This document shows, piece after piece, positions 9,936 to 61,152 of a stretch of 64,000 nt of DNA. Positions within the stretch are counted from its first letter, which is position 1; each line of letters opens with the position of its first letter. The stretch covers positions 9,738-73,737 of the forward strand of contig JAHBNG010000070.1 of NCBI GenBank assembly GCA_019217005.1. The letters run 5' to 3'. A program made the translations under genes and the position numbers. The notes under the pieces were generated by a model. That model was not told the origin of the DNA. It saw only the letters and a program-made list of their open reading frames with translations, and made no database searches. Origin of the DNA: Chloroflexi bacterium TSY. Its GTDB lineage: Bacteria; Chloroflexota; Anaerolineae; Caldilineales; Caldilineaceae.

Positions 9936-12147
9936 TTAGTCCGGTCTCTTGCTGACACCAAACCACGGACTATCCATCATTCGTTCTGCTGCTTCCTCGG
10001 CGGCCAGCTCGGCGGCAAGAAATTTCTGTAGGAGAGACTGGGGTGGTTCATTTTAGGCGGACAATTAGGTTTACATTTTTGCAAAGAGAAAAGATGTTTA
10101 TATTTTCTACTTTGAGCCATGCTCAGGCAGAAAATGACCTCATATAGATTTTTATCTATGTATCAAAAGTGTAAACCTAATTCTGAACCACCCCGAGAGA
10201 CCAATCAAAAAATCGTCTCTCTTCAATCCGAATAGCTTGAGCAGATGCGAAGGATACTTGGAGCACCTCGTCGACTGCCGTGGGAATTTTTTGCCAATAA
10301 CCGATACGACGCGCTGTGGACGGACGCGCTGGAATGTGGCGCGCTCGAGACACTGGACGTTGGGTGCTCAAAAACTCGATCCACTCCCAGGCCGCTCGTG
10401 GAGATACCGAGTGTTGACTGATCACATTGCCGGCGACACGTAGGGGAGTGATGAGAATCTCCTCCTCGCTAATAAGGGGCAGAATGTGCGGGCTATGCTG
10501 CTGCTGATAATGCTCATAGTGGGTAGGGGCGCCAATCCAATACACGACTTGAGGTGGTACGGATAGAGCGTTGAGTACAAGTTGTTTGCGTTCTTCGTCA
10601 GCCAAGGCGCTCAAGTCGGGTGTGAAACTTTGCGTTACCTGCTGCTGATACCATTGGATTGTCTCAATCAGATCTTGCTTCCGCAGCGGACGAGAACAAT
10701 CTATCTTTCTTTCGCTTTGATCGGCGTCTGCCGGGGCCGCCACCATCGTAGTGGACACCCAATTGAACGGTGTATCTATGCGGCATCTGCGTGAGAGCGC
10801 ACGGGCAAATAACAGATCGCGCGTTTCATCGATGTACATCCATTTGAGCCGCGCATTGTCCAACTGGCGTTGAATCACGCTCATCTCATGCTCAATCAGA
10901 TCCCTACTCAACGAGCTATTCTCGATCAGATTTTGCAAGCTGTCATCAGCCTGACTCACATAGAGCAAGCGCAGAGAGGCAGAGTGTGGTAACATCCAGA
11001 GCCGCTTCTGCCACACTCCCCCATCCCAAATGGCCGGATAGAAATCGGCCATGTCAAATGCAACCTTGTTTTCCGTAAAATAGGTTAAGTCATGAATATG
11101 TCCCGCTGTGATGAGTTCGGGCGTCGGGATCATATAGGCACTATCGACGAGGGCAAGTAAGTCGTCTGAATCATTCGGTAAATCCGCTTGCGAAACAATC
11201 CGCACGCGCCGTTGAGAATGGTTGAGCATGAAAGTGGTCGCAAGCTGCTCAAATCGGTTTGTGAGATGGGTTGGGACGGCGTGTCGAATCTCTGGCGGTG
11301 CCAAATATTCATGAAGGCGCTGCTCTAACAGTTGCCAAAATCGCTCCGCAGGTTCATTGGCCGTCGTTAGCGCAATCAGACGTGGGGATGGCACCTCGAC
11401 TGTATGGGGTGCTGCAGTTGTGCCAAAGCGAGAGCGAACAGTGAGCGATAGGGGCAGACGCTTGGACAGGCATTTCTTGTTCTCTTCCTGTTCTGAGGGG
11501 TTTGATGCGGAACTTTTCTGGGACGTTGGCGGACAGAGTTCACTGATGACCTGCTCAACAAAGTGGCCGATTTCTGTTTGCCACAACGTATCTTTCTCAT
11601 AGATTCGCAGTGTTCCCCAACTCTGCTGGCTCTCCTCCTGGTCACCCCAATAGGAGCGAATGTAAGGGACACGCACCAGTGCTCCCGCCTCGCGTTGATA
11701 AAAGAAGACCCGTTGCAAATACTCTTGATCATTCCTCCATTGGACAGTTGCCCAAATATTCGCTGCCCGACCGCCCACATCGACAATCTCTACTGTTTCT
11801 TGTCGGATCGCCTGATTGAGTGGATGAAACTGTGTCGCAATCCAAGCGGGGTCGTCTGCTTGTGTCGACAAAAATAGCGCAGGATCACCAGACGACGCAG
11901 CTCGTTGTTCAAGATCGAGATACAGATTGAGTGTACGGTGTAGTTCGATCCTTTCTTCTTCTGACAGTGCAGGCGAAAAAAGTGTACGCAACCATGTGCG
12001 TGAAGTGGGCCAGGCGAGCAATGAGACAACGAATAAGCTGAGGATACCCAGCAGAAACCAAGGCCACAATCGACGTCGGCTTTTTTGCTGCAAAGAGCCT
12101 TCATCTCTCTGTTCATCCTGTACCCGCCATTGAAACTCAAAGCTCAT
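9936..12147 (-). pseudogene. membrane-anchored protein with solute-binding-like domain, 3' end split by MITE B
   Basis: The open frame 10177-12147 encodes 656 residues. After a short cytoplasmic N-terminus there is one transmembrane helix near residues 28-48, an extracytoplasmic region, then a domain like ABC solute-binding proteins (AWEWIEFLST near the end is typical of family 1 binding proteins). MITE B lies at 10040-10194, close to the C-terminus, so the present protein ends in four foreign residues. Removing the element and one duplication restores about 30 more codons to a TAA at 9936-9938. The product may still be functional because only the tail is affected. Ligand unknown; no permease or ATPase is adjacent, so a sensory role is as likely as uptake. 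Confidence 0.78.
10040..10194. mobile_element. MITE family B, subtype B1
   Basis: This is a 155-bp element with inverted ends GGGGTGGTTCA / TGAACCACCCC. The flanking 8-mers are GAGAGACT (10032-10039) and GAGAGACC (10195-10202), a target duplication with one mismatch. It has no coding capacity. Sister copies are at 16649, 25780, 50126 and 58168. Confidence 0.9.
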
Positions 12148-12234: not shown

Positions 12235-14583
12235 TTATATATCCCCAGAAAAGTTTTGTCCCGTCTTTGCTCTGGGAGACGTGGTACAAAACTTTTCTGA
12301 GGATATATAGACGGGGCTACTCCATGCTTTCTCCTGATCGACCTGAACAACGCGTATCCAATAGGGTGTTTCGCCAATCAGCGGCTTCGTATCGAGATAA
12401 CTCAGTTCGATCTGGTGAGGACCATCTTCCTTCGGTGCAGGGCCAATCTGTACGCAGCTATTTACATAACCGGCTTCGATAGTCATCGGGGCACCCCTTA
12501 CTTGGTTCTTGGAGAATTCAAACGTCGACACAGGCGAATCGAAGCGGCAAAGGGCATCGACCCCTTGTGCCGCCTCATTTGTATCCCATCGAAAGATGAA
12601 TCCCGCGGCATTGCCTGCTGTCGCAGAGCGCCAGGCTAACGTTGTGTCATCCACCAAATTAACGTCATCAGCTGCGCTCTGGAAGCCAACCGACCGAATC
12701 TGGGAAAAGATGCCAGCCGTTGCGCGGAGTGTCCCATCCCAAACCAGTCGTTGCGCACCAGCCGTTCCCATAGAACGTGCACCGCTCCACAAAATACGCA
12801 ATAGGTCATCGTGATAGGAAGCGATTTGCCAGCGACAGAGAACTTGCGTACCCCGCAACAGATCGATTCGCTCAATTGCAGCAGTCCCCTCTACTTCTAG
12901 TTTGATCCGCGGGTAACCACTGGTCTTGTAAGTCGAACCCATCGGGTGACCATCTACCTCCACCCAGAGCCGGATCCGTTTTCCCGTGGTACCATAGCAG
13001 CGTCTAGCTTGAAAGGCTTCCCAAAGTGATTCTTTATTTAGCTCAGCAGCATAAACACCGGTGATACCGCTACGGACATTGCGGTTGAGTCGCCAACCGG
13101 GATGATCGGCACCGGGACGGCCTGCCACGCCATCAGCCCCCGCAGTGATGCCCACTTTGTAGCCCCGACTCAGGGCATCTTCCACAAACCATTCGGAAGT
13201 GCCGTGGGTGGAATGGATTTCGGCCAGTGGTTCAAGTTCGGGCGCATGGTAATCCAGATTGGTGGGACGCCCGCCCACATGCATATTGACCATGATGGGT
13301 TCGTCTCGGAAGGCTGCATGGAAGTCGGGGGCCGTGGGAATGTCTGGCTCTGGATCGGGATCCGTCTCCGTAAAAAATCGACCCGATCGGCGCAGACGTG
13401 CCTCATCGTGGTGGTAGATTACGTTGCGGTCGCCACCATCTTTGGTGGGAGGACTCCATTCGCAGCCAAGGAAGACGACAAAGTGATGGGGATCATCAAA
13501 TGCAATGGCTTGCTCGCGCGTATGTTGCCAAAGGTCGCGTGTGATGTAGTGGTCGTTGGCCTGATGAGTCACAAATTGCAGGCCAGCCACGTCCCGCGCA
13601 AAATGATAATGATCGATCAGGCTACCTGCACCACAGCCGATTTCGGTCTGTCCAGAATGAAGGTCGCCCCAAAAGAGTTGTAGATGAGGGCGTTCGGTAT
13701 TAATGTGGAAGGGATTGCTCTGTGTCCTGAGTTCAAGTTTCGAGATCGAAGCCGCAATGCAATAGCTTCCCGGCTGGTCAATGGAGAGAGAGAATCGATA
13801 TGCCGTCGGGTTGTCGGACATTGTACCCTCAGAAACTGTCATCGTGGCCGTGGATGATGCATTTTGTATGGGCATCAAATCAAGTTGAGGCATTGCTTCG
13901 CCAAGAGACGCTGCATTGCCCCATCGATCTTCTGCACGTACCAGAACATCAAGTCGTTTACCGATTTCGCCTTGAGCCGGTGCGACTGCTACCAGGCGCT
14001 TTGGTGAACCAGCCTGAATCGCATAGGAGGGTGGATCGAGCAGTTGAATCCAGCGGTCACTGTTATCTGGATTCAAGAGCATGAGGAAACCAGCCTGCTT
14101 GACGCGACAGGTTGGTGCACGCCAACCCATCCCGCGACCAGAAGAATCACCACAAACGAGACGTACCTGATCACCACGCACCAACTGTCCCCGTCGAAGA
14201 ACCAATTCGACACAGTGCATCCAAGGATCGAGATCCCCCATTTGATGATAAATCAGTTCAAACAAAGGAGCTTCGCCCTGAACAGGTGAGACCGATTCAA
14301 CAGAGACAGTCATATACCCATCTTCCTGAGGGGTGTCACTCTGTAGATCGCTCCAATCGAGAGGCCAACGCCAGGCAATCCGCAAGCGTCCGCCCATTGG
14401 CAGACCCGTTTCACCCATCGTAAACTTGAAGGTAACGGTGGTGAATTCCCCCGCTGTCAGAACATCCGCCATCTCGATCGTACCGACCCCATAGAGTCGA
14501 TTGCGTTCGTCTGGTTCAATTTCTGGCAGATGCCACACGTGAGGGAAACTTGGTTTTCCGCTTGTTTTTAGCATTGACATCAT
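12235..14583 (-). CDS. DUF3604 / PHP-type metal-dependent hydrolase-like protein
   Basis: The 782-residue protein contains an N-terminal beta-rich region, then at about residues 300-560 a segment opening with WGDLHSGQTE and followed by HQANDHY, GCEWSP, NMHVGG, EIHSTHG and TAGADG. These His/Asp/Glu-rich motifs mark DUF3604 proteins, relatives of the PHP phosphoesterase domain that bind several metal ions. A C-terminal beta domain follows. Such genes usually sit among glycan or natural-product catabolic genes; the substrate is unknown. There is no clear signal peptide. The last roughly 15 codons derive from a hairpin at 12236-12309, so the native C-terminus has been altered. Start could also be the ATG at 14574. 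Confidence 0.82.
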   Translation of the reverse strand: MMSMLKTSGKPSFPHVWHLPEIEPDERNRLYGVGTIEMADVLTAGEFTTVTFKFTMGETGLPMGGRLRIAWRWPLDWSDLQSDTPQEDGYMTVSVESVSPVQGEAPLFELIYHQMGDLDPWMHCVELVLRRGQLVRGDQVRLVCGDSSGRGMGWRAPTCRVKQAGFLMLLNPDNSDRWIQLLDPPSYAIQAGSPKRLVAVAPAQGEIGKRLDVLVRAEDRWGNAASLGEAMPQLDLMPIQNASSTATMTVSEGTMSDNPTAYRFSLSIDQPGSYCIAASISKLELRTQSNPFHINTERPHLQLFWGDLHSGQTEIGCGAGSLIDHYHFARDVAGLQFVTHQANDHYITRDLWQHTREQAIAFDDPHHFVVFLGCEWSPPTKDGGDRNVIYHHDEARLRRSGRFFTETDPDPEPDIPTAPDFHAAFRDEPIMVNMHVGGRPTNLDYHAPELEPLAEIHSTHGTSEWFVEDALSRGYKVGITAGADGVAGRPGADHPGWRLNRNVRSGITGVYAAELNKESLWEAFQARRCYGTTGKRIRLWVEVDGHPMGSTYKTSGYPRIKLEVEGTAAIERIDLLRGTQVLCRWQIASYHDDLLRILWSGARSMGTAGAQRLVWDGTLRATAGIFSQIRSVGFQSAADDVNLVDDTTLAWRSATAGNAAGFIFRWDTNEAAQGVDALCRFDSPVSTFEFSKNQVRGAPMTIEAGYVNSCVQIGPAPKEDGPHQIELSYLDTKPLIGETPYWIRVVQVDQEKAWSSPVYISSEKFCTTSPRAKTGQNFSGDI
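12236..12309. repeat. perfectly bounded hairpin at gene 3' end
   Basis: Ends ATATATCC and GGATATAT frame a stem whose arms are CAGAAAAGTTTTGT and ACAAAACTTTTCTG with a loop of about 28 bases. It is inside the reading frame of the DUF3604 gene and supplies its stop codon. It may act as a bidirectional terminator, and its form is like the other hairpin insertions in this window. Confidence 0.7.
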
Positions 14584-14962: not shown

Positions 14963-16138
14963 CTACAAGCTTGGTGTCTTATATAGTATCTGTCCATTGA
15001 CATATATCTCTACATCCACTAAGTAATTTCTCACCTTGGCCTGATCGACGGTCATGCCTAGACCAGGAGCATCGGGAATCTGGATAGTGCCATCCTCATC
15101 CCGTTCAAGATGATTCTCGGTGATGTCTGTGGCCAGTGGCTTGAGTTCTACTGGATATTTGCAGATTTCGTCGTCTTTCACTCCTGCGAAGGGCTGGAGC
15201 GACGCGCTCAAGGCCAGATGAGAGGTAAAGGTGTGATTGACATAGGCAACGCCACGGGCTTGGGCATAGTCGGCTACCTGCTTGGCGATGCTCAATCCAC
15301 CGATACGACCCGCGTCGATCTGGACAAAGCCGACGCCAGCATAGTCGATCATATGTTGCGCCATGTAATAGTTATGGCTACCCTCGCCACCAGCCAGCTT
15401 GACGCTATCACAGCGCTGAGACAGGGTATGATAGGAACTCAGTGCGCCTGAGACGAATAGTTCTTCCAACCAGGTGGTGCGACATGTCTCTAATGCAGGC
15501 AAACGTTGTGTTGCCTTTTCCACATCGTCACGCCAGACGGTGCCAATGTCGATGAGCAGAACGCCTTCGTCACCCAACCCCTCTCGCGCTGCCATAAAGT
15601 GATCGGCATCTTCCTGTGCGCTCCCCAGACCAATGGGGCCCCAACCAAATTTTGCGGCTCGAAAGCCGTCGGTGCGTGCTTGACGCCCCTTTTCCAGCGT
15701 CTCTTGAGGGGTATCGCCAAAGAGCATCGAAGCATAGGGCAATTTGGGATAGGCGCGATCATAGCCAAGGAGCTTCCATGCCGGTTCGCTGAGTCTGCGG
15801 CCCAGCAAATCCCACAGTGCCATATCAATCCCAGATAGAATGTGATCGGTCTGAAGCAGATCCATACTCTCTTCCCGGACCAGATTGCCAATTCGATAGA
15901 TGTCAGTGACGTCATTCAACTCTTGCCCCAGCACCGATACCTGGACTGGTTTGCATGCGCTGTGGGACATCGGTGCGACCCAGCCAGCAAGTGACGGCAG
16001 CGGTGAAGCTTCGCATTCTCCCCATCCTTCTTCACCCCCCGCAGCGACCCGCACCAGCAATGCGTCCTGACTGCCATCACCAATGTCCAGAACCTCTGGC
16101 ATAGATAAATAAAAAAGGTCGACTGATTCAATTTTCAT
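14963..16138 (-). CDS. mandelate racemase/muconate lactonizing enzyme family protein
   Basis: This enolase-superfamily protein of about 391 residues has an N-terminal capping domain and a TIM barrel. Metal ligands are visible as Asp in LLIDIG, Glu in WLEELF and Glu in AGGEGS; the lysine in FRAAKFGW and the His in NHTFTSHLA are candidate bases. The family abstracts the proton alpha to a carboxylate, often to dehydrate sugar acids. I chose the ATG at 16138 (MKIESVDLF) because the family usually starts there; the longer frame runs into the IS630 end at 16171. That insertion lies about 30 bp upstream, so the native promoter may be lost or replaced. Substrate unassigned. Confidence 0.88.
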   Translation of the reverse strand: MKIESVDLFYLSMPEVLDIGDGSQDALLVRVAAGGEEGWGECEASPLPSLAGWVAPMSHSACKPVQVSVLGQELNDVTDIYRIGNLVREESMDLLQTDHILSGIDMALWDLLGRRLSEPAWKLLGYDRAYPKLPYASMLFGDTPQETLEKGRQARTDGFRAAKFGWGPIGLGSAQEDADHFMAAREGLGDEGVLLIDIGTVWRDDVEKATQRLPALETCRTTWLEELFVSGALSSYHTLSQRCDSVKLAGGEGSHNYYMAQHMIDYAGVGFVQIDAGRIGGLSIAKQVADYAQARGVAYVNHTFTSHLALSASLQPFAGVKDDEICKYPVELKPLATDITENHLERDEDGTIQIPDAPGLGMTVDQAKVRNYLVDVEIYVNGQILYKTPSL

Positions 16139-16246
16139 GATGACATGTTCAACTTTCTTCGCCTCTGCCATAGTGTTTTGTCAGATAAGTTATAATACGG
16201 TAAACTCTGCCAGAAAGTGACTAAAAAAACGAGGAGGCAGAGAGAA

Positions 16247-17552
16247 ATGAAGCAAGTATATAAAGTTAAACTAAGTGATAAAGACAGAAATGAATTAAGG
16301 CGAATAACGGCAAAAGGAAAAGAGAACGTAAGAAAGATAAGAAGGGCACATATTCTGCTCTTGTCAGATGGAGGAAAAACAGACAGAGAAATCATGGAAC
16401 GAGTGGGAGTGACGCGAGCAACGGTGGTGCGAATCCGCAAAAGATATGTGACGGAAGGGCTAACCAAAGCCCTAGAAGAGAGGCCAAGAAGCGGACGACC
16501 AGTCGAGATTAGTAACGAAGCCAGAGCCAAAATCACGGCACTAGCGTGTACGAAAGGACCAGATGGGCGAAGCCGATGGACTTTAAGGCTGCTAGCAACC
16601 ACAGCGGTTGAGTTAAAGTTTGTGGAAGACATTTCGCATGAAACCGTGGGGGTGGTTCATTTTAGGCGGACAATTAGGTTTACATTTTTGCAAAGAGAAA
16701 AGATGTTTATATTTTCTAATTTGAGCCATGCTCAGGCAGAAAATGACCTCATATAGATTTTTGTCTATGTATCAAAAGTGTAAACCTAATTCTGAACCAC
16801 CCCAAACCGTGAGTGAAATTCTGAAAAAAACGAACTGAAACCCCATTTGAAGGTGCAGTGGTGTATCGGAAAGTTAACACCTACATACTTGTGGCACATG
16901 GAACAAATCTTGGACCTCTATGCACAGCCCTATGACCCCAAGAATCCTCTCTGGTGGGTGTTACGATGAAAAACCTTGTCAGCTCTTGGGCGATACAATC
17001 GTGCCGATTGAGATGAAACCAGGCAAGAAATGGCGCTATGATCATCACTATGAACGCAAGGGCATCTGTTACATCTTGATTGCTTACCAGCCACACACTG
17101 GACAGCGGGTTGTTCAGATTACCGAACGGCGCAGAGGCCAAGAGTATGCTCGCTTCATGCATGATCTCAAAACGAAACACAATCCTGATGCCGATTCATT
17201 ACAGATTGTTCAGGATAATCTCAACATTCATTCACCCAGTTCCTTCTACACCATCTTTTCGCCTGAGGAAGCTTTCGCTCTGGCTCAGCACTTTCAGATG
17301 GTTTATACCCCCGTCAACGGGAGTTGGCTTAATATGGTTGAAATTGAACTCTCGGTTATCACTCGCCAAGTTCTTGATCGCCGCATTGATTCCAAAGAGC
17401 TTCTTGAGACTGTTGTCCTTGCTCTTGTCAACGAGCGCAATGAACAATCCGCTACCATTCAATGGCAATTTACCCCCGCTCTCGCTCGCCAGAAGTTCCA
17501 GCGTTTCTATCCTGTTTTGGATACCGATTCTGATGACCAACCTGTATCATAA
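16247..17552 (+). pseudogene. IS630 transposase, split by MITE B and frameshifts
   Basis: The gene starts at the ATG 16247, preceded by the strong Shine-Dalgarno GAGGAGG. The N-terminal HTH region (DREIMERVGVTRATVVRIRKRY) and linker (EERPRSGRP) are intact to 16648. MITE B follows; the 8-bp duplication AAACCGTG flanks it. After the element the sequence reaches an A7 run (16824-16830), where a -1 shift is needed to continue into the DDE domain, and a further shift near 16965. The catalytic region has CYDEKP, QDNLNIH and a final Glu in NMVEIELS. The first of these shifts occupies the same protein position as in the IS630 copy at 45069. Confidence 0.88.
16649..16803. mobile_element. MITE family B, subtype B1, inside IS630 transposase
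   Basis: A 155-bp copy with perfect 8-bp duplications AAACCGTG at 16641-16648 and 16804-16811. Its sequence differs from the copies at 10040 and 25780 at only a few positions, suggesting recent spread. Confidence 0.95.
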
Positions 17553-17571
17553 CTTATCTGACAAAACACTA

Positions 17572-17655
17572 CTGTTTATCCGAAAAGTTCTGTGACAAAC
17601 CATTCCTGCCCGAGAAGTTAGTCAGACTCACAACCACTTTGCGGATAGGTTCTTA
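17572..17655. repeat. hairpin repeat C, copy 1, at the 3' end of a PhyH gene
   Basis: An 80-bp inverted-repeat sequence bounded by TATCCGAAAAGT and ACTTTGCGGATA. Its reverse complement recurs at 21898-21980, there also directly behind a PhyH gene. The stop codon of the PhyH gene lies at its edge. It may be a terminator-like repeat or a small MITE. Confidence 0.65.
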
Positions 17656-18531
17656 GCCTCTTTCTCGCGGCATATCCAACGTACGAAAACGCTGTTGCCA
17701 GTGCCACTTGTCGCTACCCGAAACGAAGGCTTTGAGATGCTCTGGCGTCTGTTCTACATAAGCCGCGCTGGGCTCTTGTCCATTCCAGGCCTGGAACATG
17801 GGAGGCGTGTAGCCGCCAATGATGATGACTCGTTCACGGTCGCCACGAATTTGCCCTGTAGCGTGGATCAACGCTTCGCCAAAGAGCAAGGTAGAGCCAG
17901 CCGGTGCGATAACTTGGTGGATCAGCGATGGATCCTCATAGGCACAGGCAATGATATCTCTTTGCGAACACTGAACCTTATGGCTGCCTGCAATGACAAC
18001 GGTCCCACCATCGTCCGGCCCCAATTCAGTCAGGTTGGTAAGGGTTTTGACGAAGTTGCAGTGGTAGAGACCATTTTCTGTGTAGGTACCATACTGCGGT
18101 CGCGTGCCCGTATGAAAGCCATAGGTAGGTGCCGCCTTCAGATCGAAATTGGGGTCGAGCGAGTTGATAATGGCCTCAGATTCCTCCAGCCGCACGGTGC
18201 CACCCACCAATTCTTCGGCCATACCTACCAACCGCGGATGGGTCAAGTAATCGAGGATGGACGGATCGGTCTCCAAAATATGCGCAAAGTGCATGTGATG
18301 AGGTTGATAGTGGGAGACGCGGCAGCTGTGCACCACTGCGTTGGCTGGGTCGCCTGTGGCCTCAAAATCGCGTTTAAGTTTTTGTAATGCCTCGAGCAGC
18401 ATACCGACCTCGTTCTCAGTCAGCGTATTCTCGATGATGACATAGCCATTGACGTCCAGATAGTAACGTTGCGCCGGCGTCAATGCCGGGAAGGGACGAT
18501 GAAATCCGTTTGTTGATCCGTTTTTGTTCAT
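17653..18531 (-). CDS. PhyH-family Fe(II)/2-oxoglutarate enzyme with HTG in place of HxD
   Basis: The 292-residue protein aligns with phytanoyl-CoA dioxygenase family proteins: N-terminal LTPAQRYYLDVNGYVIIENTL, central DDGGTVVIAGSHK, distal histidine in ALIHATG (H223) and an arginine in the following RGDRERV for 2-oxoglutarate. The proximal iron motif, expected to be HxD about 35 residues before DGGT, reads H140-T141-G142. Loss of the carboxylate ligand is the hallmark of Fe/2OG halogenases of the SyrB2 and WelO5 types, where halide takes the open site. It could instead be an inactive paralogue or use another ligand. The three other PhyH proteins in this window keep HxD. It is separated from the upstream enolase gene by the IS630 element. 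Confidence 0.85.
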   Translation of the reverse strand: MNKNGSTNGFHRPFPALTPAQRYYLDVNGYVIIENTLTENEVGMLLEALQKLKRDFEATGDPANAVVHSCRVSHYQPHHMHFAHILETDPSILDYLTHPRLVGMAEELVGGTVRLEESEAIINSLDPNFDLKAAPTYGFHTGTRPQYGTYTENGLYHCNFVKTLTNLTELGPDDGGTVVIAGSHKVQCSQRDIIACAYEDPSLIHQVIAPAGSTLLFGEALIHATGQIRGDRERVIIIGGYTPPMFQAWNGQEPSAAYVEQTPEHLKAFVSGSDKWHWQQRFRTLDMPRERG

Positions 18532-19033: not shown

Positions 19034-20353
19034 TCACCTGGAGTATTCATATCCTCTATCAAAATAGGCCAGAAGATCTCCTTCCGCAGCCCACATTTCA
19101 TCAAACATCTCTCGGATCTTGTGGAGCGGCAAAACTGACGCAGTGAGCGGCTCTAGCGCAACAGCATGGAAAGCGGCTTCTCTGTCTCGCTCAACAGCTG
19201 CCTTCACAGCCAATTCCTGCACGCTGATGTTCGTCATGTTGAGAGCTGCACACTGAGGAGGCAATGCACCGACATAGGTTGTGTGGACCCCCTCCCGATC
19301 CACCACACATGGCACTTCGACACAGCAATGGTTGGGCAGATTTGTGATAGAGCCATTGTTCATAACATTGCCGTTAAACGTAAAGGGAACGCCAGTGATC
19401 TGCGCTTCAATAATGGCTGAGGCATATTCGTGGGAGCGAATCAATTCGGGGACGGTTTCGTTGCCATCTTGGTCGACCCCCGTATCTTCTTGCCAATCAC
19501 GCTTTTTGAGCGGCTCCATGCTGACCGTGCGGCCAGTCAGTCCAAAATTATCCATCAACTCCTGGTTGCGACGGAAATAGGGCAAATATTCAGAATTGTG
19601 ACGGGTGCTCTCCGTCACAAAATAACCAAATTGCTTCATCATCTCGACCCGCACCTTATCCTCTGCAAAGATCTCATTGGTGTCAATCGCTTCTCGCACT
19701 AGAGGGTAGACGTCTTTTCCATGATGACGGAAGCGCAGAATCCATGCTTGGTGATTGATGCCCGCAACCAGATAGGAGATTTCTTCATAAGGAATATCAA
19801 TGCCGTCAGCTAGTTTCTTGGTCGTTCCTTGAACGCTGTGGCAGAGACCCACATTGTGAATGGTCGATTCAGTGGAGTGTAACCACGTGAGCATACACAT
19901 GGGGTTGGTATAGTTGAGCAAGAGTGCATCTGGACAGTGAACCTCCATATCCTTGCAGAATTGGAGATGTTCGGGAGCCGTGCGCAGAAAACGGAAGACA
20001 CCGCCAGGACCAATCGTATCACCTACCGATTGGCTGATGCCGTAGCGATCCGGGATTCCCATTTCTGATGCATATGGTTCACCCCAATAGGCGGGACCAC
20101 CGATGGAAACTGCCGTCACCACAAAGTCGGCACCGGGGAGGAGTTCATGGCGGTCTGTACTGGCGATACAGGTTGCGGGGAGGTTATGGGCATCAATGGC
20201 TCGTTGCACGTAGCGCTGCACACCATACAACCGCTCTTGGTTGATGTCGCAAAGTCCGATGGTGACATGTTGCAAGTGGGGGCGGGAGAGAATATCAATG
20301 GACAGACGGCTGCCAAAACCGCTTCCTGCTCCAATGATGACAATTTTGGTCAT
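19034..20353 (-). CDS. GH4-family glycosidase (alpha-galactosidase/glucosidase type)
   Basis: The 439-residue enzyme has an N-terminal Rossmann fold for NAD (IVIIGAGSGFGSRL) and the GH4 signatures NYTNPMCMLTW, GLCHSVQGT (Cys and His for the divalent metal) and AGINHQAW. GH4 enzymes cleave glycosides by a redox-elimination mechanism needing NAD and Mn2+. The NYTNP plus CHSVQG pattern is that of the MelA/AglA branch. It is intracellular with no signal peptide. The adjacent permease remnant at 18664 suggests it once belonged to a sugar-uptake operon. Length matches the family and all motifs are intact. Confidence 0.93.
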   Translation of the reverse strand: MTKIVIIGAGSGFGSRLSIDILSRPHLQHVTIGLCDINQERLYGVQRYVQRAIDAHNLPATCIASTDRHELLPGADFVVTAVSIGGPAYWGEPYASEMGIPDRYGISQSVGDTIGPGGVFRFLRTAPEHLQFCKDMEVHCPDALLLNYTNPMCMLTWLHSTESTIHNVGLCHSVQGTTKKLADGIDIPYEEISYLVAGINHQAWILRFRHHGKDVYPLVREAIDTNEIFAEDKVRVEMMKQFGYFVTESTRHNSEYLPYFRRNQELMDNFGLTGRTVSMEPLKKRDWQEDTGVDQDGNETVPELIRSHEYASAIIEAQITGVPFTFNGNVMNNGSITNLPNHCCVEVPCVVDREGVHTTYVGALPPQCAALNMTNISVQELAVKAAVERDREAAFHAVALEPLTASVLPLHKIREMFDEMWAAEGDLLAYFDRGYEYSR

Positions 20354-20394: not shown

Positions 20395-21591
20395 TTACCT
20401 GACCTTTTGAAACGTAATTTCGTAAGACCAGTGTGCGTGAAAAAAGGGCGGTTCACAGCGGTCATCGGGCGTGGGGCAGATGGCATATTCATTATCGACT
20501 GGCCCTAATTTGCCAATAATATCAGGGATATGAGGTTTGGCTGTGTTCATCTGATTAGAGACTTGGCTCGTTACTGGTCCACTTGGTATGGAAGCGACAT
20601 AGAGCTTGTAGGGTTCCCAAAACATCTCAAACTCTGTCCGCCCAGGGCCTTTGTTTCCCGTGACAACGGTCAGTTGATCGGCTAGAATATCTTTGACCAC
20701 TGCCCCGTCGATCCCGTTGCCGTTCTCATCGATCACATTGACAAAGATGATATGTTGACCGCCGTTGTTAAAGATGCCGCCATTGTTTTCACCAAAGCCA
20801 AGGATTCGGTAGTGAACGATATGAAACTGGGCATTTGGATCAAAATTGCCCGCTGTGCCGCTATGTGCTGGCGGCTGTGCATCTTCTACAGGAGGTGGAG
20901 TGGGAGCCTCTACGACAGAGATCGCAGTGGGTGTTGGAATTGGTGTTGGTGGAAGTGGTATATTTGCTGAGACAGGAACGCTGTCGGCATGTCGGACATC
21001 GAGTAGGGGACCATAGATCCATCCAGGCTGCTCACTCTCAAAACAACAGACCTGCCACCAATCCCCCTGCTGATTGCGTCCGATAGTTTTTAACTGCTGA
21101 TTGGCTGCCACGCTCCCCATGATGTCATACACTGTGCCTGGGCCTTGACGCACGTTGACGATCTCGGAAATGACAATTGCGACAGGTTCACTGGATAGAG
21201 TCAGTTCTTCACCGTTGTGCTGCGGCGTTTTTGTCTGCGTAGGAGTCTGAACTGGAGTTTGTGTTGATAACTGAGTGACGCGGGTATTTTCCGATGTATC
21301 TTCATCAGAGAGTTCGACACTTCCCTCTGTCAGAGTCATCACGTCAGGTGCAGCCGTTCCTTGTACCTCTTCTTCCCCGGTCGCTTGGTGCGCGGCGAGC
21401 GTACTAGTTGGTGTGAAAGTTGGCACCAATACCCTGGTAGGCGTGGGAGTGAAATCTTCAGTCTCTTCCGGCCCGAAGAAAGCGCCACAGCCATTGTTTA
21501 CAACGAGTGTAACAAATGCCAAACAGAGCCACAAGAACGTTTTAATTAAGTCATGTCGCTCACGGCATTTTTTTAAGTAATGAAATTGCAA
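20395..21591 (-). CDS. lipoprotein with bacterial SH3 domain and Thr/Pro linkers
   Basis: The 398-residue protein begins with a signal sequence ending in the lipobox-like VNNGC, so it is probably a lipid-anchored surface protein. A Thr/Pro/Glu-rich linker (residues about 45-130) is followed by an SH3_3 domain (IVNVRQGPGTVYDIMGSV ... WWQVCC ... GWIYGPLL) at about 140-205, another Pro/Thr linker, and a C-terminal beta-rich domain of about 160 residues with no recognised family. Such TPTPT linkers and SH3_3 domains are common in Chloroflexota envelope proteins. Function is likely binding to cell-wall or extracellular polymer. Confidence 0.85.
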   Translation of the reverse strand: MQFHYLKKCRERHDLIKTFLWLCLAFVTLVVNNGCGAFFGPEETEDFTPTPTRVLVPTFTPTSTLAAHQATGEEEVQGTAAPDVMTLTEGSVELSDEDTSENTRVTQLSTQTPVQTPTQTKTPQHNGEELTLSSEPVAIVISEIVNVRQGPGTVYDIMGSVAANQQLKTIGRNQQGDWWQVCCFESEQPGWIYGPLLDVRHADSVPVSANIPLPPTPIPTPTAISVVEAPTPPPVEDAQPPAHSGTAGNFDPNAQFHIVHYRILGFGENNGGIFNNGGQHIIFVNVIDENGNGIDGAVVKDILADQLTVVTGNKGPGRTEFEMFWEPYKLYVASIPSGPVTSQVSNQMNTAKPHIPDIIGKLGPVDNEYAICPTPDDRCEPPFFHAHWSYEITFQKVR

Positions 21592-21977: not shown

Positions 21978-21980
21978 CTA
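21898..21980. repeat. hairpin repeat C, copy 2 (inverted), at the 3' end of a PhyH gene
   Basis: This is the reverse complement of the repeat at 17572-17655, with ends CTATCCGAAAAGTGG and AGAACTTTTCGGATAAG. It abuts the stop codon of the PhyH gene at 21978. Confidence 0.65.
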
Positions 21981-22847
21981 AGGTCCACTCGCCGACAAAC
22001 GCTCGTCTGGAAAGCGGTTTGGCTTCATCGGTTCCACATCGCCAGTATAGCGGGGAATGACCGGTTCGATCTCGTCCAGCGCAGTCTGTGGCCAGTCGCT
22101 GTGTCTGCTGTGAAAATCCGCATGAATCCAGCTCTGGGTACTCGGATGAAGGCTGTCGAAGAGCGGATGAAACCATATAGTGATGACCGTGCGACGTTGA
22201 TCGGATCGGTTTTCATGGGTAGCGTGAAACATGCGTGCATCACCAATCACCAGATCGCCAGCACGTATCGGCACATCATGTTCGTTGGGGTAATCTAGAA
22301 AGCGTGGATCATTGGGATTCTCGACACTGTTTATATCGGCTGTGTGTGCTTCGCCCAGGTCGTGTAGGATATGGCGTCTGCGGTGGGTTCCCGGCAGCAA
22401 CCGTAGACATCCGTTTTCGACAGTTGTGTCTTCCAGATAGTACATCAGAAAGATCATCGGCGAAAAGTCGCTATATGCCCGTGGGTCTTGCCACATCAGG
22501 CAATCCTGGTGCCAATACAAACGGGGACCACCCGGTGGCTTGCTGATAATTACCGCTTTCCAGAACTTTGTGTCTGTCAGACCCATCTCATTGAGTGCCT
22601 TCAGCGCAATGGGATTGCCAATAATGCCAGCGAGTTCGGGATAGTTATTGGAGTCGATCAGCGTACCGGGCGCACGCCAACGCGCAAACCGTTCCGGATC
22701 CTGATCAGCAATTGCTTGTTTGACACATGCGCGCGTGCGGTTGAGCAAGACATCGTCCGCTATGCTTTCTAAGACGCAGTAGCCATTGTGCTGGAGTTGC
22801 CTAAGTTTGGTGGAAGGTTCTGATATTGAGAAGGTTTCTGTCGCCAT
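21978..22847 (-). CDS. phytanoyl-CoA dioxygenase (PhyH) family protein
   Basis: The 289-residue protein carries the full Fe(II) facial triad: H113 and D115 in YWHQD and H208 in MFHATHENR, with R219 as the 2-oxoglutarate carboxylate partner. TTVENGCLRLLPGTH is the typical core strand. The family hydroxylates small-molecule substrates using O2 and 2-oxoglutarate. It shares the WHQD class with the protein at 60259-61152. The genomic neighbours (lipoprotein, clpC) give no hint of substrate. The hairpin repeat C directly follows its stop. Confidence 0.92.
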   Translation of the reverse strand: MATETFSISEPSTKLRQLQHNGYCVLESIADDVLLNRTRACVKQAIADQDPERFARWRAPGTLIDSNNYPELAGIIGNPIALKALNEMGLTDTKFWKAVIISKPPGGPRLYWHQDCLMWQDPRAYSDFSPMIFLMYYLEDTTVENGCLRLLPGTHRRRHILHDLGEAHTADINSVENPNDPRFLDYPNEHDVPIRAGDLVIGDARMFHATHENRSDQRRTVITIWFHPLFDSLHPSTQSWIHADFHSRHSDWPQTALDEIEPVIPRYTGDVEPMKPNRFPDERLSASGP

Positions 22848-25779: not shown

Positions 25780-25934
25780 GGGGTGGTTCATTTTAGGCGG
25801 ACAATTAGGTTTACATTTTTGCAAAGAGAAAAGATGTTTATATTTTCTACTTTGAGCCATGCTCAGGCAGAAAATGACCTCATATAGATTTTTGTCTATG
25901 TATCAAAAGTGTAAACCTAATTCTGAACCACCCC
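25780..25934. mobile_element. MITE family B, subtype B1, between clpC and a release-factor-like gene
   Basis: A 155-bp element with perfect 8-bp duplications CAAAGTTT at 25772-25779 and 25935-25942. It lies upstream of clpC and just downstream of the gene ending at 25949, so it could alter clpC promoter context or termination of the neighbour. Confidence 0.95.
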
Positions 25935-46522: not shown

Positions 46523-47539
46523 ATGACAAATTCTCTAGTGCGAATTGGCTTTGTCGGATGTGGACGGCAAGCAACGGCTTCCTGGTATCCCAACTTTGCC
46601 ACGATTCCCGAGTTAGATCTGACTGCTTGTTGCGACATTCAGGCCGATTTGGCAGAACGCAATGCGCGCTTTTTTGGTGCAAAACATTGGTATACCAAGG
46701 TTGACGCAATGTTGGATCAGGAAGATTTGGATGCCGTGATCGTGGTCGGCCCGCCCGATATGCACTACACGTGCGGCAAGCAAATCCTCGAGGCCGGACT
46801 ACCGCTGATGATGGAGAAACCGCCGGCGCGAATTCCAGCTCAGGCCGAGGAATTGGTCGAATTGGCTAAAGCAAAGGGTGTCCTGACACAGATTGGTCAC
46901 AACATGCGTCACGCGCCTGGTGTTCGTAAATTCAAGGAACTAATGGCCACACCTGAATTTGGGCAATTGCTCTTTGTCGAAAGCCGCTATTTTATGCCCA
47001 GCCCCATGTGGCCCGAAACCTCGGATTATCGCACTGGCTGGACTTATATGATCTTCCAATCCACCCATGCCGTTGATCTGGCGCGCCACATCGGTGGCGA
47101 AATCACAAGCATCTATGCAGATCATTCGGTTGGTGCCGAAGGGCGCTTCTCCATTGCGTCTGTTGCCAGCTTCAAGAGCGGTGCCACGGGTACCATTACT
47201 CTCACGGGCTGCACGCCCAACTGGACTTGCAAACTCGAAGCGGCTGGCGATGCCCGCGCCCATTTACGCTTGGTCGATCTGCATACATTGCATTTCGAGC
47301 CGCACACGGATGAAAGCGGTTATGGACCGACCCCTGGAATTCCCGGTCACTACTGGGCGCCCGCTGTCCGCGACAATGCTGAAAAGCGGGGCGGCTACTG
47401 GCACCAAATGCAGGCATTTGCCCATGCCGTTCAGTCCGGCAAAACAAGCGTACCAACACTCTATGACGCCTATCGTGCCATGGTGATTTGTGATGCAATG
47501 TTAGATAGTATTGAACGCAAAGAGCCGATTGAGGTATGA
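46523..47539 (+). CDS. Gfo/Idh/MocA-family oxidoreductase
   Basis: The 338-residue protein has an N-terminal Rossmann domain (IGFVGCGRQATASWYPNF) and the catalytic-lysine motif MMEKPPA at about residue 96, followed by an alpha/beta C-terminal domain with the HAVDLARHIGG segment that usually holds the catalytic His/Asp. It oxidises or reduces a hydroxyl of a sugar, inositol or related polyol with NAD(P). Its stop lies 53 bp before a PhyH gene with a strong ribosome-binding site, so both are probably one operon for a single catabolic or modification pathway. Confidence 0.9.
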   Translation: MTNSLVRIGFVGCGRQATASWYPNFATIPELDLTACCDIQADLAERNARFFGAKHWYTKVDAMLDQEDLDAVIVVGPPDMHYTCGKQILEAGLPLMMEKPPARIPAQAEELVELAKAKGVLTQIGHNMRHAPGVRKFKELMATPEFGQLLFVESRYFMPSPMWPETSDYRTGWTYMIFQSTHAVDLARHIGGEITSIYADHSVGAEGRFSIASVASFKSGATGTITLTGCTPNWTCKLEAAGDARAHLRLVDLHTLHFEPHTDESGYGPTPGIPGHYWAPAVRDNAEKRGGYWHQMQAFAHAVQSGKTSVPTLYDAYRAMVICDAMLDSIERKEPIEV

Positions 47540-47592
47540 GCGTGTTGCGTTCTGACAACCAACCCCATCGTGATAACTCTGGAGGAACCTTC

Positions 47593-48525
47593 ATGACAAA
47601 TAATTCTTATCCCCAACCGACTCGTGACCTGGCACTGGCCAAATCACATCTGGACGAATTTGGCTACTGCATGTTGGCCGAGGCGCTTACCAGTAGCGAA
47701 GTAGCGGCATTGCGCACGCGGCTTGAAGAGCAGGCTGCGGCTGAGTTAGAACAAGACCTTGCTTATAAAGACGGCGGTCCCAATCGGTCGGGCATCAATC
47801 AGCGGGTCTGGTTTCTGGTGAACAAAGGACGCGTCTTCCGCGAGTTATTGCTTCATGAGGAAGTGCGTGAACTTGTCGGACATGTGCTTGGTGACGATTA
47901 TCTTCTCTCGAGCTTTACAGCCAACATTGCCAACCCAGGAGGCGTGATGACGATGCACACCGATCAGTGGTGGATGCCACCACCTGCCAAGCCAGAGAAG
48001 ACACTGGTGCGGCCTGGGTCGATGACGCGGGAGAGCTTCCGCGGTCATCATGTTGGGGGCGATGAGACCATGGACCAGCCGTTGATTGCGCCAGCCGTGG
48101 CTTGCAACGTCATGTGGATGTTGTGTGACTTTACGGCAGAAAATGGTGCAACCCGCATTGTGCCGGGTAGCCACCAAAGCGGTCGTCAGCCAGATCCTGA
48201 GTTGGATCAGGATGCCGAGTGGCTTCCCGCAGAGGGATCAGCCGGGACAGCGGTTGTCTTTGAAGCACGTACTTGGCACAGCACTGGCGCCAATATCTCC
48301 GACGCCCCACGCCTGGGTACGCTGAGTTATTTCTGTGCCCCACAATTTCGACAGCAGGAGAATCTAGTCCTTGGCACAGCGCCCGAGGTGTTAGAAGATG
48401 CACCCCAAGAGCTACTTGATCTTCTTGGATTTAAGCTCTGGCAAGGGTATGGTCGGATTGAAAGTCCCAAGAGTGAGTATATCGAACGGGGGCAGTATGC
48501 ATTGGGGGAACTGCGGCCAGCTTAG
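47593..48525 (+). CDS. phytanoyl-CoA dioxygenase (PhyH) family protein
   Basis: The 310-residue protein has the iron ligands H122 and D124 in MTMHTDQWW, and the distal His in TWHSTGANIS. TAENGATRIVPGSHQ is the core strand. I chose the ATG at 47593 because GGAGGAA lies immediately upstream; the longer frame starts within the end of the preceding gene. It probably hydroxylates a small carbohydrate- or lipid-like substrate made or used by the oxidoreductase encoded before it. The loop between HTD and the core strand is long, with His-rich GHHVGGDE, unusual for the family. Confidence 0.9.
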   Translation: MTNNSYPQPTRDLALAKSHLDEFGYCMLAEALTSSEVAALRTRLEEQAAAELEQDLAYKDGGPNRSGINQRVWFLVNKGRVFRELLLHEEVRELVGHVLGDDYLLSSFTANIANPGGVMTMHTDQWWMPPPAKPEKTLVRPGSMTRESFRGHHVGGDETMDQPLIAPAVACNVMWMLCDFTAENGATRIVPGSHQSGRQPDPELDQDAEWLPAEGSAGTAVVFEARTWHSTGANISDAPRLGTLSYFCAPQFRQQENLVLGTAPEVLEDAPQELLDLLGFKLWQGYGRIESPKSEYIERGQYALGELRPA

Positions 48526-50125: not shown

Positions 50126-50280
50126 GGGGTGGTTCATTTTAGCTGGATAGATAGGTTTACACTTTTAGAAACAGAAAGAACGTTTATATTCTCTGATTTC
50201 GCCGGTTCTCAGAGAGAAAACGGTCTCATATAGATTTTTGTCTATATATCAAAAGTGTAAACCTAATTTTGAACCACCCC
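50126..50280. mobile_element. MITE family B, subtype B2
   Basis: A 155-bp element with perfect 8-bp duplications AGAATGTG at 50118-50125 and 50281-50288. It differs internally from subtype B1 but matches the copy at 58168. It lies just upstream of the enolase-superfamily gene and could change its promoter. Confidence 0.95.
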
Positions 50281-58118: not shown

Positions 58119-58616
58119 TGAGCGAACAGACATCATCGATTTCTCGTGAATTTTTCCAAGGCTTTGGGGGGTGGTTCAAAATTAGGTTTACACTTTTGAT
58201 ATATAGACAAAAATCTATATGAGACCGTTTTCTCTCTGAGAACCGGCGAAATCAGAGAATATAAACGTTCTTTCTGTTTCTAAAAGTGTAAACCTATCTA
58301 TCCAGCTAAAATGAACCACCCCGGCTTTGGAATTGCCAAAGTCGCGGGCTTGATCTTTGCATTGATTGGCATGATTATAGCCATTTGGATGGTCTACTTG
58401 GTTGATGCACTCTTCCGAGATCCACAGAGCTTGGGGCTCATTCAGCAGCTTGCCGCCGCCGATTTTCAGATCAGCATCACCTACAGCGACCTTCCGATCC
58501 GGTTTCATGCACCCGATCTCTTGACCTATGGTGTGCCGATTATTTTGTTGGGCACACTGACTCGCATGGTGACAGCCTTTGTGACCTTAGGCGGGAATCT
58601 GTTACGGAGTCGGTAA
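58119..58616 (+). pseudogene. small membrane protein split by MITE B2
   Basis: The 5' part (ATG at 58119) encodes MSEQTSSISREFFQGFG. After the element the frame continues with IAKVAGLIFALIGMIIAIWMVYLVDALF, a membrane helix, and a second hydrophobic segment at VPIILLGTLTRMVTAFVTLGGNLL. Excision of element and one duplication gives an uninterrupted protein of about 111 residues with two transmembrane helices. I do not recognise a family. The 3' part has its own ATG within the element end (at about 58311) and could be translated with a short foreign N-terminus. Confidence 0.8.
58168..58322. mobile_element. MITE family B, subtype B2
   Basis: A 155-bp element, inverted relative to the copy at 50126, with perfect 8-bp duplications GGCTTTGG at 58160-58167 and 58323-58330. 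Confidence 0.95.
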
Positions 58617-60258: not shown

Positions 60259-61152
60259 TTACGCGACTTCACCAATTACGCAGTGCTCCGGCCGCCCTGC
60301 CAACCAATCCGTCAATGTCGCAACCCGTTCCGGATAGAGATAACTCCGCGCCAGAAAGCCAGCGCCGTGCTCTGGCATCGGATCCTGATCTGTCGGTTGA
60401 TAGCGCAGATCCACGGCCCAGCGTACTTGTTTGGAGCGATTGGGGGTCGACATGTGGATGCAGCGATCGTTGAAGAGAATTGCGTCGCCAGTCTTGACGG
60501 GCAGGGCCAATGCTTGCTTTTCGGGCCCCAGATGTTCCTCATCAACTTCTGTGTAGCCTGTGCCCGAATAGGTTTCTCTGTGCCAGGAGAGGATCTTTTG
60601 GCGATGGGTGCGGGGCATAATGTGCAAGCAGCCATTCTCCAGAGTAGAGTCGACCAGCGAGACCCAAACAGTGATCACGGGGTTGGCGTTGGCACCTGGC
60701 CAGTAGGATTTGTCCTGATGCCAAGGCACGGCGCCCGCGGCAACGTGGGGTACTTTGGGTCGGGTGTTGTAGACGGGATTGGAGAAAATCTCGCCACCGA
60801 TTAATGACTCAACAGCATCCAGTATTTTGGGATTGGACATCAGATCAAAATAGTCCGGTAGACGGTCGCGCCAACTACGCCCAAATGTCAGAAAGTCGGC
60901 ATCAGTTAACCCTTCAAAGAGTTCAGCCAAGCGTCGATCAAATGGACGATTCTCCCGTTTGTCTGTGATCAATCCAGATTCGACCAGTGCATCGGCAATC
61001 TCATCCACTCGCTGATTCATCGATATTTTGACTGCTCTCAAGTCAGCCTCGTCGAGTAGGTTTTCCAAAACAAGGTAACCTTCTCGATCATAGAATTTTA
61101 CTTGTTCGCTGGTCAGACTTCCACCGTGGTCGCTGCGATAGGTATCAAGCAT
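60259..61152 (-). CDS. phytanoyl-CoA dioxygenase (PhyH) family protein
   Basis: The 297-residue protein has H145 and D147 in VPWHQDKSYW, H233 in CIHMSTPNRS and the co-substrate arginine R244 in KQVRWAVD. STLENGCLHIMPRTH forms the core strand. The FDRRLAELFEGL segment and WHQDxxYW arrangement resemble the large PhyH group expanded in Poribacteria and Chloroflexota. The aldo-keto reductase gene lies 11 bp upstream on the same strand, so the two are very likely cotranscribed, with the reductase acting before or after hydroxylation. Confidence 0.92.
   Translation of the reverse strand: MLDTYRSDHGGSLTSEQVKFYDREGYLVLENLLDEADLRAVKISMNQRVDEIADALVESGLITDKRENRPFDRRLAELFEGLTDADFLTFGRSWRDRLPDYFDLMSNPKILDAVESLIGGEIFSNPVYNTRPKVPHVAAGAVPWHQDKSYWPGANANPVITVWVSLVDSTLENGCLHIMPRTHRQKILSWHRETYSGTGYTEVDEEHLGPEKQALALPVKTGDAILFNDRCIHMSTPNRSKQVRWAVDLRYQPTDQDPMPEHGAGFLARSYLYPERVATLTDWLAGRPEHCVIGEVA

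Follow-up and report, generated by a model that had tools for sequence, protein, structure and literature searches.

Canonically, the metal of an Fe(II)/2-oxoglutarate (2OG) oxygenase is held by an HxD...H triad, and the exchange HXA/G for HXD serves as a sequence flag in searches for Fe/2OG halogenases (PMC10947486). Within the PhyH fold, human PHYH (2a1x), PHYHD1 (2opw) and the related 2'-O-methylnucleoside demethylases share the distal iron histidine (PMC12709175); they also contain HxD, and PHYH has Pro four residues before the distal histidine, a position called H-4 below. In SyrB2 (2fct) and CytC3 (3gja), of the same fold family, Ala stands in place of the HxD Asp and Ser occupies H-4. 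Human AspH, in turn, is a natural HXG...H hydroxylase whose iron is described as having two histidine ligands and no carboxylate from the protein, and the Asp to Gly variant of FIH retains some activity (both PMC10947486); HxG alone is therefore no proof of halogenation. HygX, from the hygromycin B pathway, is a further PhyH-fold protein with HxG, reading LHGG and NEALMH at its two motifs, and the titles of its PDB entries (4xc9, 4xca, 4xcb, 4zpi) name nickel plus 2OG, iron and hygromycin B as bound. The present work concerns a gene for a protein of this fold (17653-18531, minus strand; hereafter the query) in a 64,000-nucleotide stretch of the genome of Chloroflexi bacterium TSY (contig JAHBNG010000070.1), which is called the window and to which all positions refer.

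The query is quite probably an active PhyH-fold Fe(II)/2OG oxygenase of the HygX kind with a relocated carboxylate, in which H140, E219 and H223 would form the iron triad; the contact between E219 and iron, and the chemistry, are proposed from sequence comparison. An earlier note on this DNA had pointed to a halogenase, which was a reasonable lead, as HxG marks true halogenases in other families.

Active site and conservation

The open reading frame is complete and encodes 292 amino acids. Its kinship with PhyH rests on fold and profile: the match to PF05721 (E 2.7e-11) scores 44.6 bits, against a curated Pfam cut-off of 22, and the same label is carried by the 120 HxG homologues listed below. 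The canonical triad is not found in this protein, where the sequence around the proximal histidine reads YGFH140TG142TRP and the HTG lies 35 residues upstream of G175 in the GGT strand. In the HMMER alignment this HTG falls on the HQD motif of human PHYH; H223 and R234 are both present. In the other three Pfam-matched PhyH proteins of the window the motif is WHQD (21978-22847), HTD (47536-48525) and WHQD (60259-61152). All of this bears out the earlier note's description of the motifs. The AlphaFold2 model of the query has a predicted local distance difference test score (pLDDT) of 86.1 and a predicted template modelling score (pTM) of 0.83.

Conservation was followed in two sets: the best 120 of 1079 homologues found (E <= 1e-3), with the query included and the others 70-83% identical to it, and a divergent set of the query plus 80 genome loci, kept from 91 relatives (43-79% identical; one, L073, partial), whose record names include Chloroflexi, Latescibacterota, Gemmatimonadetes, Planctomycetota, Verrucomicrobia, Poribacteria and others. 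The nearest named homologues among the matches listed are from Caldilineaceae, Litorilinea and Latescibacterota. In the first set H140, G142, E219 and H223 are each present in 120/120 and R234 in 119/120; in the second, all five are present in 81/81. Gly142 is thus, on these alignments, a fixed property of the family, with no Asp at that position. The family as a whole has genuinely lost the HxD carboxylate, so that neither a sequencing error nor private decay accounts for it. E219, which the earlier note had not mentioned, is as strictly conserved as the iron histidines.

The same alignments bear on the idea that the query is a non-catalytic paralogue, which had been offered as one alternative. 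The query does depart from its relatives at two nearly invariant residues, with H68 where 119/120 homologues have Arg and L125 where 117/120 have Arg. Still, the residues expected for metal and 2OG, including H140, E219, H223 and R234, are all intact and conserved across relatives of 43-83% identity, and loss of activity is hardly credible. The two departures may instead mean that the substrate of the query differs from that of its relatives. A side observation concerns the copy number of such genes: at one Planctomycetota locus (L036, G010:C49:27682-31590), four HxG PhyH paralogues stand in tandem.

The acid at H-4 and the loss of the HxD acid

The relation between the two positions was examined by aligning the PhyH frames of 140 loci and of the window against one profile (180 rows, with only identical frames removed; a gene whose frame is cut may be counted twice if its locus overlaps another). 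Within the query family (>=38% identity), 89/91 rows combine HxG with Glu at H-4, the remaining two being gapped. Among the 89 rows outside it there are 12 HxG and two HxS rows, all 14 acidic at H-4 (9 Glu, 5 Asp), whereas only five of the 71 HxD rows have an acid there (4 Asp, 1 Glu); the other four rows read DxD and HxR, or are misaligned or gapped. After dropping rows shorter than 150 residues, gapped at either histidine or >=70% identical to a row already kept, 105 of the 180 rows remained, in which an acid stands at H-4 in 51/51 HxG/HxS rows against 5/54 HxD rows. These labels were set by the motif's third letter, with one HxD-labelled row reading DHD (L053) and one HxG-labelled row misaligned at the first histidine (L138). 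R234 is kept in 51/51 of the non-redundant HxG rows.

Searches started from two distant HxG members gave a similar picture. With the first, Asp was found at H-4 in 120/120 proteins (the best 120 of 4049 found), and with the second, of the LHGG type like HygX, Glu was found in 116/120 (the best 120 of 555 found). Of the four exceptions, three no longer contain this region: P0313 stops short of it, and P0318 and P0347 carry unrelated tails.

HygX was the best-scoring solved relative, with E 8.2e-27 using profile A4 against 2e-10 for the next best, and the top Foldseek match of the query (E 1.3e-15). Like the query, it has the PhyH fold, HxG for HxD, and Glu four residues before the distal histidine. 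The two proteins differ in that they share only 21-24% identity, and in that HygX belongs to the hygromycin B pathway while the Pfam scan of 40 window proteins (out of 74 frames of >=120 amino acids, many overlapping) showed no antibiotic cluster. A 2015 abstract by McCulloch and others is said to mention variation in the metal coordination of HygX. In the open-licence literature on HygX, orthosomycin oxygenases and HxG motifs, no account of the HygX metal site or of an acid shift was found, although one could be in print elsewhere; nor was described chemistry found there for the HxG/acid clade beyond HygX.

Several observations weigh against a relocated carboxylate. The fourth LHGG-type exception, P0330, is a real one: it reads HGA and has no acid at H-4, and it is the sole protein among those 120 to keep the region without the acid, its C-terminal part being unlike that of its relatives. 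The row L130, discussed below, combines HxD with Glu at H-4, and HygX ranks only 49 of the 50 matches shown by VIA-align with the query. When the 105 rows were placed on a tree, all 51 HxG/HxS rows fell into one group (Shimodaira-Hasegawa-like approximate likelihood ratio test, SH-aLRT, 98; quick method) that also contains L130. The label needs two changes, and about one evolutionary switch lies behind the pattern; the correlation between HxG and acid therefore does not amount to many independent observations. Sampling also matters, as the HxG rows were gathered by searches with clade members and the HxD rows are largely the best PF05721 matches plus flanking genes; HxG proteins without the acid elsewhere in the PhyH family could have escaped. 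Three observations do not depend on the tree: how strictly the acid is kept across great divergence, the exchange of Glu and Asp, and the Ser found there in SyrB2 and CytC3.

L130 itself (1-648) is a PhyH fragment placed within the HxG clade, and it is possibly an intermediate or a reversal.

A hydroxylase like human AspH, with two histidines on the iron, water at the third site and E219 in a second-shell or substrate role, is a reading in favour of which L130 speaks, and AspH and the FIH variant are precedents for it. It would, however, leave unexplained the fixed Glu or Asp at H-4 in the sampled subfamilies that lack the HxD acid, and it is considered unlikely.

The carboxylate could also come from another acid. 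In the HxG rows, columns 26, 174 and 219 are fully acidic and column 169 is acidic in 50/51. The most likely candidate after E219 is D174, which is Asp in 51/51 HxG rows while the HxD rows have mostly Asn (N 37, D 3 of 54). In the model, residue 26 belongs to the first helix and D174 to the turn between strands 161-166 and 177-180, away from the distal histidine, and the prevalence of Asn at this turn in HxD proteins speaks against it as well. E219, by comparison, lies just past strand 214-218, and H223 starts strand 223-225. A ligand role for D174 is accordingly rated as very improbable. The positions of the residues discussed are given in Table 1.

Table 1. Positions in the window of the HxG PhyH gene and of its proposed active-site residues
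Feature	Position	Strand	Basis
PhyH-fold Fe(II)/2OG oxygenase (probable), 292 aa, HxG / ExxxH type	17653..18531	(-)	PF05721, AlphaFold2, Foldseek best match HygX
H140-T141-G142, proximal His and position of the HxD Asp	18106..18114	(-)	H140, G142 120/120 and 81/81
E219, H-4, proposed replacement carboxylate ligand	17875..17877	(-)	conservation; comparison of HxG and HxD rows
H223, distal iron His	17863..17865	(-)	conservation
R234, expected 2OG arginine	17830..17832	(-)	119/120, 81/81, 51/51
D174, second acid invariant in the HxG clade, weaker rival ligand candidate	18010..18012	(-)	D 51/51 HxG rows; HxD rows N 37, D 3 of 54

Comparison with halogenases

If the query were an Fe/2OG halogenase, chloride or bromide would occupy the site freed by Gly142 and the substrate radical would take up the halogen. 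The HxG motif of real halogenases in other families, for instance plant DAH (PMC12346261), would fit such an enzyme, as would the strict conservation of Gly142, which stands in place of the HxD acid as Gly or Ala does in SyrB2-type halogenases, and the fact that SyrB2 and CytC3 share its fold and weakly match the HxG-clade profile. Both of these proteins, however, have Ser at H-4 (HQA with FWSTLMH in SyrB2; HQA with FWSNTMH in CytC3) where the query family conserves an acid; the comparison at this position covers these two halogenases, with WelO5, BesD and CurA left out. In the profile searches PF05721 was matched, and TIGR01762, the NCBI model of chlorinating enzymes, gave no match to the query at E <= 10. 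The latter model was matched at E <= 1e-3 by frames of all ten related genomes searched, none of them over its cut-off of 226.3, and the best of these matches (L141, 97 bits) reads HSD. According to PMC2767507, prolyl hydroxylase in which Asp was replaced by Ala or Gly gained no halogenase activity, and Asp or Glu introduced into SyrB2 abolished halogenation. No halometabolite cluster was seen among the 40 scanned proteins of the window. With HygX, an oxygenase, as the best solved match, the halogenase proposed in the earlier note becomes improbable, and the ligand supplied from elsewhere, which it had listed as an alternative, is what the alignments favour, with E219 as the candidate.

These comparisons matter beyond the query. 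In the PhyH proteins sampled, largely by similarity to this clade, the HxG flag marks an acid at H-4, with HygX as a solved member, and inspecting the residue at H-4 could rid halogenase searches of many false calls. The clade seems to be large, with 1079, 4049 and 555 proteins (E <= 1e-3) reached from three members, in overlapping sets of which the best 120 each were compared. The pattern is broad and testable and corrects a motif-based inference, and for this kind of enzyme a solved structure, that of HygX, already exists.

Proposed mechanism

According to PMC12709175, strands II and VII of the minor sheet carry the proximal and the distal histidine, respectively, so that an acid on strand VII is a plausible third ligand. 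The iron of the query would then be bound by H140 (strand II), by H223 (strand VII) and by E219, which would replace the HxD aspartate from a position on the same strand as H223 and four residues ahead of it; the small residue at 142 would leave space for the E219 side chain. Three sites on the metal would thus be taken by the protein, two by 2OG and one by O2, and an ordinary ferryl cycle would be expected, in which decarboxylation of 2OG would be followed by hydrogen abstraction from the substrate and by hydroxylation, demethylation or oxidative cyclisation, with no halogenation. As a guess by analogy, drawn from HygX and from the mixed sugar-catabolism neighbours, the substrate may be small and polar or sugar-like. 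A more speculative and rather doubtful idea is that, in this very large PhyH clade, the moved Glu or Asp can leave the metal during turnover, which would open oxidative cyclisation, epimerisation or even transfer of halide or another anion, reactions barred to a fixed HxD triad.

Genomic context

On one side of the gene, its same-strand neighbours encode a GH4 glycosidase (19034-20353), an SH3 protein (20395-21591) and the second PhyH protein (21978-22847); on the other side, past a transposon, they encode an enolase-superfamily enzyme (14963-16171) and a DUF3604/CehA-like protein (12235-14583). A role as an orthosomycin-pathway oxygenase, judged by location, was considered and rejected, as the 40 proteins scanned revealed no orthosomycin or aminoglycoside cluster and the neighbours are the GH4, enolase-superfamily, SH3, DUF3604/CehA-like and transposase genes.

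Around the homologues, 98 of the 129 listed neighbour proteins from 25 loci were compared, with the longest and some outer ones left out, and no widely shared partner gene was found among them. Among the 25 neighbour families shown, out of 88, the commonest were PhyH (5), GFO/IDH/MocA C3 (5), lactonase (4) and MR_MLE (4). Common neighbours occurred within one cluster of close relatives (L008-L015, 8/34 loci). Relatives of the window's GH4 protein stand near a homologue in 2/34 loci, and relatives of its enolase-like protein (24-26% identity) also in 2/34. PhyH matches per genome ranged from 20 to 153 across the six genomes searched, the counts being at least these in four of them; Poribacteria are known for their many PhyH genes, put at more than 1.9% of all genes (PMC3909097).

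The transposon (16171-17571), with 28-nt inverted repeats, separates the HxG PhyH gene from the enolase-superfamily gene. Two frames, one with a helix-turn-helix (HTH; 16217-16756) and one of the DDE_3 type (16920-17552), make up its split transposase, which is interrupted by one of three near-identical elements of ~155 bp, found at about 10040-10194, 16649-16803 and 25780-25934 and alike at 153-154/156 positions. These elements end in inverted GGGGTGGTTCA and are flanked by a duplication that is an exact 8 bp in two and 7/8 in one. The window also contains a diverged relative of them near 58180 and one lone arm near 50250.
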